This document shows positions 30,035 through 37,475 of a stretch of 58,767 nt of DNA, one piece after another. The position numbers were made by a program, and so were the translations under genes. Every line of letters starts with the position of its first letter. The stretch's first letter is position 1. The notes under the pieces were generated by a model that made no database searches, was not told the DNA's origin, and saw only the letters and a program-made list of their open reading frames with translations. Origin of the DNA: Candidatus Lambdaproteobacteria bacterium RIFOXYD2_FULL_50_16. GTDB lineage: Bacteria > SAR324 > XYD2-FULL-50-16. The stretch lies in NCBI GenBank assembly GCA_001783695.1, contig MFNE01000010.1, forward strand, positions 41,599-100,365. Reading direction: 5' to 3'.

Positions 30035-33000
30035 TTAAATCTCCGGTTCTTCTCTAAAGTCGGCGGTTTGGATCCCGTGGATTTTGAAGGCTTCAATGAC
30101 CTTTTCCCAAACCCGCGCTTGGATTTGGCGTTTGTGTCCATAGTTGCTGATGGTGTAAACGCAGGTATAACGGGCTGACCAATGGGTGAAGTCGCTAAAC
30201 CGGACCTCTGGTTTGGGGTCCTCTAAGACCTCTTTGACCGAAGACATCGATTCGCTAAGCACCTTGACCACTTTGTAATAATCAACCGACTTTTCTAAGT
30301 TGATCTCAAACAGTGTTTCTGTGTTCGGGTTGGGGCTGGTGAAGTTGTGGAAATGGGACTCTGAAATGGTGTTGTTCGGAATCCCTACAATCGCCCCTTC
30401 GCGGGTTTGAATCTTAACGGTCCGCCAACTGATCTCCACTACCTTACCTTCTTCAATCTCGCCAATTTGGACCCAGTCGCCTAAGCGCACGGTTTTTTCT
30501 AGGTTTAGTACTAAACCGGCAAAGATGTTTGAAATGTTCATCTGCACCGCCATACCGATGATCATTACAAAAATACCCGAAGTTCCCAAGATACTGGCCG
30601 CGGTCTCGCCATAAACAATGGCCATGATCGCGAAGACACAAAGGCTTAAGATAGTCGCGGCGAAAAAGATTCGCGCAAATTTAGGAATGTGCCGCCCGGT
30701 GGTGCCTTCTAATTTGCGCCAAGCAAAGGTTTCAAACGCCCGGAGGAACAAAACCGTCGGGACTATCAACCAAGCAATATCAAAGACCTCAGTAGCGACA
30801 GCCAACCGCTCCATGTCGGCAATACGAAAATAGTAATCGGTGACTAAAATCTCAAAGTTGTAAATCAAACCCAAAATAGCCAAAGCCTTGATCAACCAAG
30901 TACCCAGCCCAGGGTCAAACTCGCGGGGCCGCTCGACAATCATTTCGGTTTCGCCGTAGTCAACCGCGTAAAAAAATCCGGACTTAGGCCTTGCAGAAAC
31001 GGGCACCTTGACCTTTTTGGTCTCCCCTAAGACCCGCTTTAAAACCGGCATCAACCAAAAACGCAGCACCAATCGGTGCTCAAAAAGGAGCAAAAAGGCG
31101 AAACAAATCGGCAGCAACGTGACTGCTACCCTTGTGCTAAAGGCGTTCCTGATTAAACTATGTTCCGCTTTTAAAGAAATAGCCGCAAAAAAACCGCTAA
31201 AGGGAACCTGCTTGGATTGCTCGTGGATATATTTAATGTTGCCTTGGATCGGCTTTTCGCGGGTGGTTTGACGGCACATAAACTCTTCCGCCAGCCAGCC
31301 GGTAGCCTGCTTGTACTCAACCCGCTCTGCGCGTGAAACCGGATGGTAAAACATATCTCCACCAATCACATCAGGTACAAATATCAAATTAGAACGGTCC
31401 AAATTTCGGTGAACAATACAAACCCCAATGTTATGGTGTTCAGCGGTTTTTTGATCGACAAAGTCGGTTTTAAAAGCCCCTTTAACAACATACCGACGGT
31501 AAATCTGGTTGCCATAGGTCACCTCTTCAACCGGCATCCTTAGCTTAATGGGGGCCACCGCATTGCAAAATTCAATGTCCCTAACGTCGATCCCCCGCCG
31601 GTAACGAAACCACAACTCAAATTCAGCCGTGTAGGTTCCCGCTACCTTCTCTAACTCGGAAAAACCGATAAAGGTCACCCCCGTATAAACAATGTAGGTG
31701 CTATGATAGAGGTGGTCACCGATCTGGGTGGCCAACCCGGCCTTAATTCGCTCCTCAAGTCCAATGATCCGTCTGGGATCTCCAGCCGCCTTCATCTGCA
31801 AAGGTGCGGAAATTAATTTATTGTGACGGTACTGACCGACGCTCAAGGGCTTTTCCATGTTCCCTTCTTCGTCGAAATAGTTAAGTCCCGTCACCCCCAA
31901 AAAGCTTGCGTTAAGCTGATTGAAGCTGGCAAGTTGGTCGCGAATGCGTTTTCGGCGCTCGGTGATGGGCATCATGTCGCCCTTGATCTTGGCCTGTTCG
32001 ATGGCTTGGGCCAGCATCATGGCCGCGTCATAAGCATAGGCAGCTCGCCAGTCGGGGGCGATTGAATACAACTTGATATAATTCCGCTCAAAATCTTGGG
32101 CCCGCTCACTGGCTGAATCATATAACAAAGGGGCCGCCACATAAACCCCGTCTGTATAGTAACCCGGATGTTGCAGCTCTTTTGGAAGACCGCGGAACGC
32201 CTCGACAAAGGTCAGTTGGGCCATGGCGTCTGGCACTAAAATTTGCCCAAAAAATTGGTGTTCCCGCAAATGTCTAATAATCTTGGCCACTTCGGCCTGG
32301 TGTCCGGCTAAAAATACCAGTCCCTGTTCTCCTGTCCCTTTTAAACTGCCCAGAATCTCATCTAACTGGGCCTCAAACTGAGCAGGGTCAGTAGAATACT
32401 TTTTGGAAAATGACACCTCTAGCCCTACCTGACGGGCTTCTTCCAAAAAGGTGTTGGCTAAAAAGCTCCCGTAATTTTGGTCCTCATAAACCACCGAAAC
32501 CTGTTCAGCGGCTAGCATAGTTTTAGTGTATTGGGCCAAGAACTTGCCTTGATAACTATCGGCAAAGATGTTGCGGAAATACCAAGGGTTGTCTTTGGTT
32601 AAGAGGTCGTTGGTAGAAGTTGGCGAAATGGCGGGCACCCCTAGGGCTTTATAGACCTCAGCCGCAGCAAGACTCGCCGCAGAAAAGTTGTGCCCAATCA
32701 CTCCTAAAATATCGGGGTCCTTGGCTATCTCTTCCGCCACTAGTTTGGCTTTTGCTGGGTCGTTTTCATCGTCATAAGCGACCAAATCCAAGCGCAAGTC
32801 TGTTTCTGACTGGCGTAGGTTAAACTCGTCCGCAAAAATCTGGGCGGCCCGGAGAAAACCTTTGCCTGCCGCTTTTTCGTCTTTCATCGGGCCCACCACT
32901 GCTAGGCGGACGCTATGGCGGGCTAGCTTAGATTCAGCCAATCCTGGAACATCTTTTTTACTTAAAAGTCCCAAATAAAAGGCAGCCCCCACCGTAGCCA

Positions 33001-33052
33001 ACGTAGCGACTAGGATTAGAGCAAGTAAAAGCAAAAACCGTTTTCGGTTCAT
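30035..33052 (-). CDS. Periplasmic-binding-protein/MscS channel fusion
   Basis: 1005 residues. TM1 (5-27), then a full type I periplasmic binding protein (about 48-420) like those of branched-chain amino-acid ABC systems: VRLAVVGPMKDEKA, LGVIGHNFSAASLAAAEVY, PAISPTSTNDLLT and AYAYDAAMMLAQAIE. A beta-rich linker domain (about 450-600) contains FELWFRYRRGIDVRDIEFCN, which recalls extracellular domains of ligand-gated channels. Four or five TM helices follow (about 641-660, 718-735, 755-775, 793-812), then the MscS pore and beta domain (815-905, with RLGDWVQIGEIEEGKVVEIS and IVGIPNN). An envelope channel gated by a bound solute is the simplest reading. Start at 33052 suits the signal-anchor. Confidence 0.85.
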   Translation of the reverse strand: MNRKRFLLLLALILVATLATVGAAFYLGLLSKKDVPGLAESKLARHSVRLAVVGPMKDEKAAGKGFLRAAQIFADEFNLRQSETDLRLDLVAYDDENDPAKAKLVAEEIAKDPDILGVIGHNFSAASLAAAEVYKALGVPAISPTSTNDLLTKDNPWYFRNIFADSYQGKFLAQYTKTMLAAEQVSVVYEDQNYGSFLANTFLEEARQVGLEVSFSKKYSTDPAQFEAQLDEILGSLKGTGEQGLVFLAGHQAEVAKIIRHLREHQFFGQILVPDAMAQLTFVEAFRGLPKELQHPGYYTDGVYVAAPLLYDSASERAQDFERNYIKLYSIAPDWRAAYAYDAAMMLAQAIEQAKIKGDMMPITERRKRIRDQLASFNQLNASFLGVTGLNYFDEEGNMEKPLSVGQYRHNKLISAPLQMKAAGDPRRIIGLEERIKAGLATQIGDHLYHSTYIVYTGVTFIGFSELEKVAGTYTAEFELWFRYRRGIDVRDIEFCNAVAPIKLRMPVEEVTYGNQIYRRYVVKGAFKTDFVDQKTAEHHNIGVCIVHRNLDRSNLIFVPDVIGGDMFYHPVSRAERVEYKQATGWLAEEFMCRQTTREKPIQGNIKYIHEQSKQVPFSGFFAAISLKAEHSLIRNAFSTRVAVTLLPICFAFLLLFEHRLVLRFWLMPVLKRVLGETKKVKVPVSARPKSGFFYAVDYGETEMIVERPREFDPGLGTWLIKALAILGLIYNFEILVTDYYFRIADMERLAVATEVFDIAWLIVPTVLFLRAFETFAWRKLEGTTGRHIPKFARIFFAATILSLCVFAIMAIVYGETAASILGTSGIFVMIIGMAVQMNISNIFAGLVLNLEKTVRLGDWVQIGEIEEGKVVEISWRTVKIQTREGAIVGIPNNTISESHFHNFTSPNPNTETLFEINLEKSVDYYKVVKVLSESMSSVKEVLEDPKPEVRFSDFTHWSARYTCVYTISNYGHKRQIQARVWEKVIEAFKIHGIQTADFREEPEI

Positions 33053-33103: not shown

Positions 33104-34831
33104 TCAATCGGGTAACTCAAGCCCCTTGAGTTTGTTCTTGGCATAAAAGCTACGGTCTTGAAACACCTTATTGACTTGATTAAACATTCCACTAAACCGC
33201 TTTTTCCCTTGTGGGTCCATCTCTTCAAAGTGTTCATTTTTCATCACTTGGAAGAAGTTGTAATACTCCATTGCCGTATTATTGTCTTCTCGGTAAAGAC
33301 CTTCGCTAAATAAAAATTGGGCCGCTGAAAGGGTAAGGGCGTCCTCTCGGGCGTTTTCCATTACCTCTTTAGCAATTAATCGGATCTCTTCTAAGGTATT
33401 ATCCGCTTCACTGCCAAGCCCTTGGGCGCTTTGCAGTTGGGCTAAAACCAACAAGAGGTTGGCTTTTCTCCACTGGGTGCTTAGATCGTATTTAAACTGG
33501 TTAAAACACTCCAAGGTTTCTAAAGCCAATCGATAGCTGTCTTGCACATATTCCCAACTAGGGGAGGTGGACTCGGGTTCTGCAACCAATTGGGCGATAA
33601 TCGATTTTTGCTTGGCTGAAACCCGTTTCCAAAGCAGCTTAAAGTCTTCGTTTTCTAGTGGCTCCAACGCCTTGGTATCTTCGCTAGTTTTAAAATGATG
33701 CCGACTGTTGCTCGCGAAACCACAAGTAGGGCAAAAGTTTATGGCCAATTTATGAAAATCAAGCCCCTTTTCCCCGGCAGAGATAGCGGTGCCGTAAATC
33801 GGCACCCCGAAAATATTAGACCTGGGCTTTTGGCTTTTAGGCTTGAGCTGGCGGACAGTCACGTCGGCGCAACCACAAAGCCAACAGGTTTGTTTGCGGT
33901 ACATTAAACTGGAATTTTTCGAGTGGAGCAGCCATCGATCCGCACTCATAGAAAGGCTAGAGCCTACCTGATTAAACTCTACCTGCTTGGCGAGGACCGC
34001 CTTTTCTTTGCGCCAATTGATCCCAGTCTGGCACCATTCAACCCCTAAACTGATCAACTTTTCAGGTAGTTGGGTAGTTCTTATATAATTCTGAATAAAA
34101 CTGGTTTCCTTAATCGAAAGCGAATCATCCGCCCCAAACATCCGTAGCACCTCAAAAAAGATCACATACAGCCCGTCCAAGGGAATGCTAGGCGGCGCGC
34201 TGAGCTTGACTTTAACGTTGTTTTTAATCTGGGTCAGCAGGCTGGCTTTAAGTTTGGGGTGTTTAAGGAAGGAAACCGCATTTTTCAGGGGCTCAAACTG
34301 TTCACCCGAAACGATCCCGTCTAGCAAAATTGCAGAAACTAAAACTTGCGCGTACCAGTATTTTTGCCGTTCGTCATAGTCCCCAACGGGCACCACGCAG
34401 GCGTCCACCTCAACGCCTGGCGGCAGAAAATTGCGCTGTTTACGCTGCCAAGTCATCCCCTGGTTAGCCCAACGGAACAATTTCGCACGGTAAGGTTTGG
34501 TGAAGTTAAGGCGAACAGCCAGACGTTCTAAATAGTCTTTTTCCGCATCCCCAAGGTCCCAGTCGCTGATAGCAAAGGTCAAAAGTTCTAGGTAAATATC
34601 GGCTAAGGCACTTTGGGGAATGTCGGCTGGGACCTCAGCCAAGCTGATTTTGCCTGATTCCAAAATAGTTACCAACTTCTTTTGGGTGGCCGTATCACTA
34701 AAGAGCTCGGTCACTCTGGAAAACTGTTCAAATTCCCTAATAGACAGGTCACCATCAGCCCAGATCAGCTGAATAGCAGCGGTCGCAAACCAAAATTTGT
34801 GTTTTTCCTCGAGTTTTTTGATCGTTTCCAT
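33104..34831 (-). CDS. TerB-like repeats with four-cysteine zinc ribbon (DUF2225-like C-terminus)
   Basis: 575 residues, cytoplasmic. Acidic TerB-type helices recur: LIWADGDLSIREFEQF (22-37), FAISDWDLGDAEKDYLERL (86-104), SAILLDGIVSGEQFE (166-180) and MFGADDSLSIKETSFI (231-246). A zinc ribbon follows with Cys316, Cys319, Cys367 and Cys370 (CWLCG and CPTCG). The C-terminal helical region resembles DUF2225 proteins. First gene of the operon with the PBP-MscS fusion and the kelch protein; 51 bp separate it from the channel gene. A cytoplasmic regulator of the channel is one possibility. Confidence 0.72.
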   Translation of the reverse strand: METIKKLEEKHKFWFATAAIQLIWADGDLSIREFEQFSRVTELFSDTATQKKLVTILESGKISLAEVPADIPQSALADIYLELLTFAISDWDLGDAEKDYLERLAVRLNFTKPYRAKLFRWANQGMTWQRKQRNFLPPGVEVDACVVPVGDYDERQKYWYAQVLVSAILLDGIVSGEQFEPLKNAVSFLKHPKLKASLLTQIKNNVKVKLSAPPSIPLDGLYVIFFEVLRMFGADDSLSIKETSFIQNYIRTTQLPEKLISLGVEWCQTGINWRKEKAVLAKQVEFNQVGSSLSMSADRWLLHSKNSSLMYRKQTCWLCGCADVTVRQLKPKSQKPRSNIFGVPIYGTAISAGEKGLDFHKLAINFCPTCGFASNSRHHFKTSEDTKALEPLENEDFKLLWKRVSAKQKSIIAQLVAEPESTSPSWEYVQDSYRLALETLECFNQFKYDLSTQWRKANLLLVLAQLQSAQGLGSEADNTLEEIRLIAKEVMENAREDALTLSAAQFLFSEGLYREDNNTAMEYYNFFQVMKNEHFEEMDPQGKKRFSGMFNQVNKVFQDRSFYAKNKLKGLELPD

Positions 34832-34979: not shown

Positions 34980-37475
34980 GTGTTTACGATATATCCGTTT
35001 TTAAGAGAAATGCGAAAGGAGTCTCGATTTTTTTGGGCTTACCTGTTAGGCTGTCGAAAGAGAAGTGTAACTAATACCAATGGGGGTCTTTTGCGTTTGA
35101 CGCGTTGTTTAATTTTGCTTTTGCTAGGTCTAAGCAGCACTTTTTACACCACTGCTTGGGCGCAAGAATCCCCCTACCAATGGCCTGTTTTACAGATGGA
35201 CCCTCGTTTGCCTAAGCAAAATGTAGGTGCTTACCTCGGCCTGTTCGCCGATCTATCGATGAAGTTAGATGGACCCCAAGCGGCGGCAGAAGTGTTTATG
35301 GCCCCGGCAGACTACTTTAAACAATTTTCCGAGTTTGGCACTCCAGAAAAAAACGGTTGGGCCCGGTTTAGGGTAAATAATAGCTTTAACGAATCTATCG
35401 ACCAAGTCCTTTACTGGGAAGACTGGGCCTTTGAAGCTGAATTGTGGCAACTTCATGAGGGCCAATGGAAACGCAAAGAACTCAAAGATTTTCAATCCGC
35501 CGAATCCTACCCTAGCCTAGGTACTAACTTTCCTTACTTCAAATTATCACTCCCGCCGGGTAAGTCTGATTGGATGATTCGTATTAAGGGGGTCACCAAT
35601 CACTTTCGCGAGGTCTCTCTATATTCCCCATTGGCGTTTGAAAAAAAGGTTAGCAGTGAGTTGGCCAGTTACGCTTTGCTTTTTGGCATTTTGGCCGTGA
35701 TGGGCCTTTATAACCTCAGCCTTTATCGTTCCTTTAAAAATCCAGAGTTACTATATTTCAGCGGTTACATCTGGTCTTTTTGTAGTTTTTTAGTGGTCCG
35801 TGATCGTATCTTTGAATCTTGGTTTGGGCTGCCAATTTGGTACGGCGGAATGACCAGTTTTCTCTTATCTTCAGGCTTTTTCTTAGGCACTTTTTATTTT
35901 CAAATAAAATATAGTTGGCTCATGTTAGGGATTGGGCCTAAACGGTGGATCATCCGCTGGTCAATGTACCTGCCCTTACTCGCCTCGGTGGCTACGGTTC
36001 CAATAGGTTTTTATGACATCGAGTTTTTCTCAGAGGCCGTTAATACCCTTCCCACCCTCATCGTCTTTGGCCTCTTCTTTTATGCCCTTTATTTTGCCCT
36101 ACGTCGCTCTGCGCAAGCGTTTTGGCTTTTAATCAGTTTCACTTCTGCCTTAGTCGGCGGAATTTTAGAGATGCTTAGTCTGGCCGGCCAAAGTTGGTTT
36201 TCTCATCCGTGGCAATGGGGGGTGACGCTGGAAGTATTGATTTTGTCTGGATATTTAAACCGCCGAATTCTGGCACTGCGCCAAGAAAAAGAAATCGCCC
36301 AAACGATGCGTTTGGCCGAGTCTAGGAAACATGCCGCCGAGCTTGAAGACAAAATCGCTCAAAAAACCAGAGATTTGCGCCAAGCGAACGAAACCAAAGA
36401 CAAATTTTTTTCTATCGTCGCCCACGACCTTCGCGGCCCTATTGGTAGCCTTTCGGTACTTTTTAATGAGGTCATCGAACAGCCAGATCAAATCTCGCCT
36501 GATCTGCTAAAAACGATGCAGGACACCACTCGAAACACCTTTTACTTTTTAGAGGAGTTGCTCAGTTGGGCCCGGAGTCAGCAAGGAGGAATCGACCTGA
36601 ACCCCAAGGTCTTCGATCTAGACCCGGCAGCCCGCGAAATCGCCAACCTTTTTGCCACCCAAGCAAGCACTAAAGGGATTGCCCTTAGCGTAAGCGGCAA
36701 GTCCGAAACCTGGGTATTGGCCGACCTGCCCATGGTCAATACGGTGCTGCGAAATTTGATAAATAATGCCCTCAAATTTACCCAGTCTGGTGGGTCGGTT
36801 GAGGTTGGCTGGAACCAGACAGGCGCTAAAGTGCGAATCGAAATCAATGATACGGGTGTCGGCCTAGATGAGCACAAAAAAAATAGCCTCTTCCGTTTAG
36901 ACGTTAAAGCCACCTCCAGCATAGGAACCCATAGTGAACAAGGGACTGGGTTAGGTTTGATCTTGGCTAAAGAATTTGTCACCCAAAACGGGGGTGAAAT
37001 TGGGGTAGAGTCCCAGGTTGGCAAAGGGTCCCAGTTTTGGTTTACTTTGCCGGCCAGCGCGGCACCCGATCAAAAACAACGTTTAACTGCGCTAGCCAAG
37101 TGGGCTAAACTGAAGATTCTGGTTGCCGAAGACAATGAACTACACAAAAAGACTAGCGCCAAGGTGCTGGGCGACATCGGTTGCGACGTGGTTTTTGTAA
37201 ATAATGGGGTTAAAGTTTTAGAAGAGGTCAACACCAACAGTTTTGACTTGGTTTTAATGGATATCGATATGCCCGAAATGAGCGGTATCGAAGCTACTAC
37301 CCATCTTCGCCAGCGTGGATTTGCTAGCCCTATTGTTGCCCTCACCGCATACAATCAACGCGAATTAGCCCGCCTCGCAGGCGAGGTTACCTTTGACGGC
37401 CTCATCAACAAACCCTTAGAGCTAGACTCTTTGCTCCAGGTTTTAGACCATTGTTTCCCAACTTTCAAAGTTTGA
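34980..37475 (+). CDS. Hybrid sensor histidine kinase with 7TMR-DISM sensor
   Basis: 831 residues. Signal peptide (about 38-61), periplasmic jelly-roll sensor (about 75-215), seven transmembrane helices (about 226-428), coiled coil, HisKA with phospho-His482 (FFSIVAHDLRGP), HATPase (NLINNALKFTQSGG, NDTGVGL, GTGLGLILAKEF) and a C-terminal receiver with phospho-Asp761 (LVLMDIDMPEMSG). 7TMR-DISM receptors are thought to bind carbohydrate-like ligands. The GTG at 34980 has GAGG seven bases upstream. It is divergent from the TerB/PBP-MscS/kelch operon across 148 bp. No output regulator is adjacent. Confidence 0.92.
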   Translation: MFTIYPFLREMRKESRFFWAYLLGCRKRSVTNTNGGLLRLTRCLILLLLGLSSTFYTTAWAQESPYQWPVLQMDPRLPKQNVGAYLGLFADLSMKLDGPQAAAEVFMAPADYFKQFSEFGTPEKNGWARFRVNNSFNESIDQVLYWEDWAFEAELWQLHEGQWKRKELKDFQSAESYPSLGTNFPYFKLSLPPGKSDWMIRIKGVTNHFREVSLYSPLAFEKKVSSELASYALLFGILAVMGLYNLSLYRSFKNPELLYFSGYIWSFCSFLVVRDRIFESWFGLPIWYGGMTSFLLSSGFFLGTFYFQIKYSWLMLGIGPKRWIIRWSMYLPLLASVATVPIGFYDIEFFSEAVNTLPTLIVFGLFFYALYFALRRSAQAFWLLISFTSALVGGILEMLSLAGQSWFSHPWQWGVTLEVLILSGYLNRRILALRQEKEIAQTMRLAESRKHAAELEDKIAQKTRDLRQANETKDKFFSIVAHDLRGPIGSLSVLFNEVIEQPDQISPDLLKTMQDTTRNTFYFLEELLSWARSQQGGIDLNPKVFDLDPAAREIANLFATQASTKGIALSVSGKSETWVLADLPMVNTVLRNLINNALKFTQSGGSVEVGWNQTGAKVRIEINDTGVGLDEHKKNSLFRLDVKATSSIGTHSEQGTGLGLILAKEFVTQNGGEIGVESQVGKGSQFWFTLPASAAPDQKQRLTALAKWAKLKILVAEDNELHKKTSAKVLGDIGCDVVFVNNGVKVLEEVNTNSFDLVLMDIDMPEMSGIEATTHLRQRGFASPIVALTAYNQRELARLAGEVTFDGLINKPLELDSLLQVLDHCFPTFKV

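Follow-up and report, generated by a model that had tools for sequence, protein, structure and literature searches.

A periplasmic binding protein and a Cys-loop-type ectodomain joined to an MscS channel: apparent exchange of the pore in a family of bacterial receptors

The window, by which the whole 58,767-nucleotide stretch of DNA analysed here is meant, contains a gene whose product joins in one chain a type I periplasmic binding protein (PBP), the ectodomain (ECD) of a pentameric ligand-gated ion channel (pLGIC), and an MscS-type channel. Proteins of this architecture constitute a family, and not an assembly artefact, that apparently arose by one ancestral exchange of pore, from that of a pLGIC to that of MscS. 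The window protein is proposed to be an MscS channel gated, or at the least tuned, by a solute and descended from a PBP-fused pLGIC, a reading to which a probability of about 0.6 is attached and in which gating, ligand class, direction of effect, and oligomeric state are all inferred. Fusions of PBPs to pLGICs have been known since 2004 (Tasneem et al., PMC549065); no description of a PBP-MscS or pLGIC-MscS fusion was found in the open-access literature searched, most subscription papers lying outside the search.

Domain organization of the window protein

The receptor gene begins with an ATG at 33052, or possibly with a TTG located 21 bases upstream, and its frame is unbroken, without frameshift, to a stop at 30035 (Table 1). 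A first-pass annotation made from sequence alone had described one 1005-residue protein composed of a PBP, a beta domain, and MscS, which is confirmed by the single frame and by Pfam; it did not give the strand, which is minus, and among the observations that would refute it was a frameshift, or a join made in assembly, in the interval 31200 to 31900. No frameshift was detected there, and a join is excluded because the same domain order occurs in independent genomes, including three copies on one 4.81 Mb contig. Rfam and tRNA scans returned no matches, and a promoter and terminator scan gave uninformative output.

Table 1. Features of the receptor gene and the adjoining Kelch gene (window coordinates)
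Feature	Coordinates	Strand	Basis
Entire receptor-channel gene (PBP, pLGIC ectodomain, and MscS), 1005 aa	30035..33052	-	Single open frame; Pfam; full-length relatives of the same architecture
N-terminal membrane segment/signal anchor, residues 6-24	32981..33037	-	Hydropathy; model helix 3-28
Type I periplasmic binding protein, LivJ/LivK-like, residues ~45-412	31817..32920	-	Pfam (Peripla_BP_6, 60-409, 6e-31); PDB sequence matches to Leu/Ile/Val-binding proteins; model matches LivK/LivJ structures; conservation counts
pLGIC (Cys-/Pro-loop receptor) ectodomain, residues ~445-637	31142..31720	-	Homology to pLGIC-pore relatives; hhalign; AlphaFold; PDB fold search
Pro-loop position (beta6-beta7 loop), residues 525-545, GAFKTDFVDQKTAEHHNIGVC	31418..31480	-	YPxD signature absent
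Five YnaI/MscS-type membrane helices, residues 638-852	30497..31141	-	Hydropathy; model; family profile against YnaI 13-335
Pore-lining helix, equivalent of MscS TM3, residues 818-852, ILGTSGIFVMIIGMAVQMNISNIFAGLVL	30497..30601	-	PDB sequence matches; model; hydropathy
MscS beta domain, residues 840-905	30338..30535	-	MS_channel_2nd (PF00924), 7e-19
MscS C-terminal alpha/beta domain, residues 917-995	30068..30304	-	MS_channel_3rd (PF21082), 6e-8
Kelch beta-propeller gene, N-terminal membrane segment	28431..30029	-	5 bases downstream of receptor gene; Pfam

Above the curated cut-offs, a Pfam scan of the protein identified Peripla_BP_6, MS_channel_2nd, and MS_channel_3rd, and it gave no match in residues 430-760. 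The four-helix pLGIC pore (PF02932) and a C-terminal cyclic-nucleotide-binding (cNMP) domain were likewise absent from the protein by Pfam, the latter being present in 30 of 56 MscS relatives. PF02932 found no match in the remainder of the window's genome either, which is a weak negative as control genomes also gave none. Sequence matches in the PDB were to Leu/Ile/Val-binding proteins for the first part of the protein and to MscS/YnaI for the last. The two-lobe fold of the former is present in the window PBP, as judged by Pfam, these matches, and the model, and the pore helix, beta domain, and C-terminal domain of MscS are all in place, with a 35-residue insert separating the first and second helices of the MscS part. 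One N-terminal and five C-terminal membrane segments are evident from hydropathy, and from their number the PBP and the beta domain are inferred to lie outside the membrane and the MscS domain inside. The full-length model (pTM 0.46) is of low confidence in the linker between PBP and ECD and in several membrane segments.

The extents given in the first-pass annotation can be revised accordingly. Its binding protein (residues ~48-420) held; its beta domain (~450-600), which contains the sequence FELWFRYRRG beginning at residue 478, is present but longer, reaching about residue 637; and its MscS part (815-905) holds yet is larger, comprising residues 638-995 with five membrane helices and a C-terminal domain.

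Residues S124, T147, and D275 of the window PBP align with S79, T102, and E226 of LivJ, which hold the alpha-amino and carboxyl groups of the ligand. A Ser equivalent to LivJ S79 is found in 80 of 83 family rows and the T102 and E226 positions are variable. Among the MscS forms the pocket residues other than this Ser vary, and the ligand may therefore differ between members. For the window PBP an amino-acid-like ligand appears likely, an inference made without binding data.

Identification of the middle domain as a pLGIC ectodomain

The likeness of the beta domain to the ectodomains of ligand-gated channels, regarded by the first-pass annotation as its least certain part, has held, and the identification of this domain as the ECD of Cys-/Pro-loop channels is well supported by homology, profile comparison, the modelled fold, and phylogeny. 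No Pfam match was obtained with the window's own ectodomain alone, and a direct sequence search of the PDB with the middle-domain profile retrieved nothing even at an E-value of 10; the link to pLGICs therefore rests on evidence from relatives, from profile-profile comparison, and from the fold. The window ectodomain is divergent, with a long branch and an odd composition.

In three relatives (L043, L129, and L140) a Neur_chan_memb pore comes after the same PBP and beta domain, and this pore scores above the Pfam curated cut-off in L129 and L140. In L043 (779 aa) the short membrane part matches Neur_chan_memb, GABA-A receptors are matched at 3.5e-10, and the match to the NCBIfam LGIC_1 model begins at residue 471 and includes the pore. 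By phmmer the window protein and L043 have homologous beta domains, and that of the window protein hence represents a pLGIC ectodomain. Furthermore, the beta-domain profile retrieves the stand-alone bacterial pLGICs L085 and L087 in another genome, and when compared by hhalign with seven independent stand-alone pLGICs, themselves found by PF02932, the ectodomains of MscS-pore forms only were matched with a probability of 89.9% (E 1.7e-6) and those of pLGIC-pore forms with 98.6% (E 5.6e-16).

The ectodomain was modelled alone because the full-length model, used as the query of a fold search, gave only PBP-type matches among those listed. AlphaFold, supplied with 50 sequences, some of them from pLGIC-pore forms, and no templates, modelled residues 438-674 with a pLDDT of 89.6, and in a PDB fold search with this model all 50 listed matches were to acetylcholine-binding protein (best E 1.6e-8, TM-scores ~0.45-0.6). 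The alternatives that the beta domain represents a new fold or a mere spacer are rejected by the GABA-A receptor match of L043, the hhalign result, the acetylcholine-binding protein fold matches, and LGIC_1.

Family members and exchange of the pore

Full-length relatives were detected by protein search in other genomes of the window's phylum and in metagenome-assembled genomes (MAGs) named as Thiotrichaceae and Deltaproteobacteria, and a Thioploca MAG yielded a partial match. The ectodomain is present in 5 of 52 genomes searched of the window's phylum and in 5 of 395 genomes of the phylum to which the deltaproteobacterial MAG, itself with 13 matches, belongs; within the order of the Thiotrichaceae and Thioploca MAGs 31 of 43 genomes contain it, and a single genome can have as many as 16 domain matches. 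About 90 relatives were classed by architecture using home-made HMMs, the PBP and ECD being followed by a pLGIC pore (group T), an MscS channel of the window type (A), the same with a cNMP domain (Ac), or another MscS type (B), likewise identified as MscS by its PDB match. In four T rows (L076, L078, and two in L080) the pore-HMM score was weak or absent, and these rows were assigned by tree and Pro-loop. The second of these MscS types follows the same PBP and ECD in L038, L039, L040, and L044, receptors with pLGIC and MscS pores sometimes coexist within one genome, and a stand-alone MscS-cNMP protein (L045) is related. Conservation is family-wide: the PBP is kept in every full-length member recovered, and the MscS beta domain, C-terminal domain, and Gly/Ala-rich pore helix are conserved throughout.

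In a tree of the PBP and ECD with the pore left out (83 rows, 595 columns), the 27 pLGIC-pore and 56 MscS rows fall on opposite sides, with the minimum number of pore changes. When rooted on stand-alone pLGICs, the 54 MscS rows form one clade (SH-aLRT 99) nested within the pLGIC-pore forms, and a single swap from the pLGIC pore to MscS is therefore indicated. The trees are quick searches in which the outgroup attaches on long branches, and a tree of the PBP alone requires two pore changes, not one. Group B falls inside the A and Ac forms, which points to a probable later replacement of one MscS pore by another type, a second exchange in the same lineage. The A and Ac forms are intermixed, a pattern that fits repeated loss of the cyclic-nucleotide domain, probably including its loss from the window copy. 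The nearest relative of the window copy shares 44% identity over the PBP; over the ectodomain, identity to relatives reaches 35% at most.

Loss of the coupling residues

The Pro of the Pro-loop is reported to be the only absolutely conserved residue of pLGICs, in which the motif sits at the interface between ECD and pore and its Asp bonds with an Arg preceding M1 (Jaiteh 2016, PMC4795631). The [F/Y]PxD signature with its invariant Pro is absent in the window protein. Across the family, this Pro is found in 27/27 pLGIC-pore forms vs. 2/56 MscS forms, and the triad of Pro, Asp/Glu, and pre-M1 Arg is complete in all 24 pLGIC-pore forms with letters at the three positions and in none of the 56 MscS forms. 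The core W of the LWFR motif is kept in both (26 of 27 and 55 of 56, respectively), as is its R, and at the coupling-loop positions of MscS forms Q, H, and G are common instead of the old signature. As a residue pattern, the ectodomain fold has been maintained while the contacts to the old pore have been lost, with another common pattern in their place. The 83 rows are related and not independent, the triad contrast amounts to essentially one evolutionary event, and the Fisher p value obtained for it has accordingly been disregarded. As a separate observation, L084 and L086 possess a pLGIC-like ectodomain with a degenerate Pro-loop (FPYSDE and FPFGEN, respectively) and an atypical membrane part.

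Proposed mechanism and alternative explanations

It is proposed that an ancestor consisting of a type I PBP, a pLGIC ectodomain, and a four-helix pore lost its own pore and gained an MscS/YnaI-type channel, which probably carried a cyclic-nucleotide domain since lost in the window copy. In the resulting receptor, the periplasmic PBP would bind an amino-acid-like solute and close, and this closure would shift the ectodomain ring. The membrane-facing loops of the ectodomain, remodelled since the exchange, may then do the work of membrane tension, pulling the paddle of MscS by its first outer helices, so that the pore helix would open and ions or small solutes would pass. The evidence favours the 'candidate ligand-gated MscS' of the first-pass annotation, with gating itself being inferred. 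Its comparison with glutamate receptors is incomplete, the protein being a naturally occurring hybrid between MscS and a Cys-loop-type receptor with a PBP, and its contrast between channels with a cytoplasmic cyclic-nucleotide domain and one with a periplasmic receptor failed, as many relatives carry both. There are no functional data, the window ectodomain is divergent, and the linker in the full-length model is of low confidence, all of which limit the ligand-gating reading. A further limit is one of symmetry: with seven subunits in MscS channels and five in pLGICs, a ring contact of the known type is not simply transferable, and monomer models cannot show the fit.

It is possible that tension remains the gate and that the PBP and ectodomain merely tune it in response to outside solutes, by setting a threshold or holding the channel shut. 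In its pore, paddle, and cytoplasmic domain the protein conforms to the ordinary MscS/YnaI type, and a cyclic-nucleotide-linked MscS that is still tension-gated has been recorded (Ss-bCNGa; by a title cited in PMC6261518). However, two other MscS genes in the window's genome are available for osmotic release, and the coupling loop, with its common Q, H, and G, has been remodelled and not merely decayed, suggesting that a signal is still transmitted. A division of labour proposed for PBP-pLGIC fusions (Tasneem et al., 2004, PMC549065) would place the decisive ligand site in the ectodomain, as in Cys-loop receptors, with the PBP merely concentrating ligand or modulating; this is unlikely to apply here, as the PBP has been retained in all full-length members recovered and the window ectodomain is more divergent from its relatives than the PBP is. 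Least credible is that the protein is no longer a channel but a sensor or scaffold whose MscS part serves for membrane anchoring and oligomerization alone. No conductance has been shown and the Kelch partner (see below) could be the true output, but the family-wide conservation of the MscS beta domain, C-terminal domain, and Gly/Ala-rich pore helix, and the replacement of the first MscS type by group B in one clade, suggest that a working MscS pore has been selected. The view that the protein is an analogue of ionotropic glutamate receptors only was set aside as incomplete, given the ectodomain homology.

Taken further, the preferred reading of a solute-gated MscS channel would make these proteins a separate natural class of ligand-gated channel, in which a Cys-loop ectodomain and a PBP sensor sit on an MscS pore, the universal coupling loop has been abandoned, and a new one has evolved, with either a five-over-seven symmetry mismatch or a heptameric ectodomain ring. 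This bolder version could equally well prove right or wrong; were it right, gating from the periplasmic as well as the cytoplasmic side would be expected of relatives that carry a cyclic-nucleotide domain.

Comparison with known channels

The closest known systems, also on the tree, are the PBP-I-fused prokaryotic pLGICs (PMC549065), in which a periplasmic type I PBP likewise precedes a pLGIC ligand-binding domain in one chain; these have a four-helix pLGIC pore and the Pro-loop signature, whereas the window protein has five MscS helices, a cytoplasmic domain, and no signature. Its membrane helices, pore helix, beta, and C-terminal domains align along YnaI residues 13-335, but unlike other members of the YnaI/MscS superfamily it bears a periplasmic receptor of 600 residues ahead of them. 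Long periplasmic parts also occur in MscK and MscM; no match was found between these and the receptor region. Bacterial cyclic-nucleotide-gated (bCNG) channels similarly join an MscS pore to a ligand domain, and many relatives carry such a C-terminal cNMP domain, but in bCNG channels the ligand domain is on the inner side, whereas the window copy lacks it and has a periplasmic receptor. DeCLIC (PMC12664993, PMC9897478) has an accessory periplasmic domain ahead of a pLGIC ectodomain, although that domain is not a PBP and the pore is that of a pLGIC. In ionotropic glutamate receptors and the GluA1-Kcv chimera (PMC6385376), an engineered pore swap shown to be workable, a binding-protein fold also drives a pore of another family, but the pore is of K+ channel type and no Cys-loop ectodomain lies between.

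If the proposal is correct, evolution can transfer the sensing half of a Cys-loop receptor to a pore that differs in superfamily and fold, and the Pro-loop interface, thought to be indispensable, goes along with its pore. The MscS superfamily, known for tension sensing, would have gained external chemical gating, and giant sulfur bacteria would possess a large repertoire of chemosensory channels. The paired set of the same receptor on the old pore and on MscS would represent a natural experiment on how ectodomain motion leads to pore opening.

Neighboring genes and additional family members

Immediately after the relatives in L037 and L041 come genes homologous to the Kelch gene that follows the receptor gene in Table 1 (E 6e-58 and 9e-99, respectively), but no such gene directly follows those in L042, L004, and L005. 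The Kelch product is likely, by inference, to be an accessory periplasmic subunit. On the same strand, 31 bases upstream of the TTG start, a 575-aa protein is encoded (33104-34831, minus strand), for which no family was detected above cut-off (weak DUF533) and which was not seen beside the relatives examined. Near the receptor operon and divergent from it is a gene for a 7TMR-DISM hybrid histidine kinase with a receiver domain (34980-37475, plus strand).

Several further arrangements were observed among the relatives. Tandem same-strand pairs, in which an MscS-type receptor without a cNMP domain (~980-1060 aa) is followed by one with it (~1130-1180 aa), occur at G058:C33, G464:C222, G470:C104, G476:C135, G482:C300, and G494:C1, in about eight more genomes, and at L069 and L157 (six confirmed by HMM, the remainder by frame length); it is possible that their products form hetero-oligomers. 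In L128 (611-4171 and 8858-12514, minus strand) and L129 (1409-5047, plus strand) a type I PBP precedes the pLGIC pore and a type II binding protein (SBP_bac_1) follows it, a domain order from which two different sensors on one channel are inferred. A pLGIC-pore relative at L077:1320-4616 (minus strand) has a long C-terminal extension with apparent cadherin-type repeats and then a sugar-type binding protein, recognized by eye only, and a PBP-pLGIC receptor at L136:682-3705 (plus strand) has an N-terminal DUF697 domain. In the Thioploca MAG (L006/L081) a PBP-pLGIC gene is present as two overlapping frames with the break within the ectodomain (~L081:3404-3425), reflecting either a frameshift or a sequencing error.
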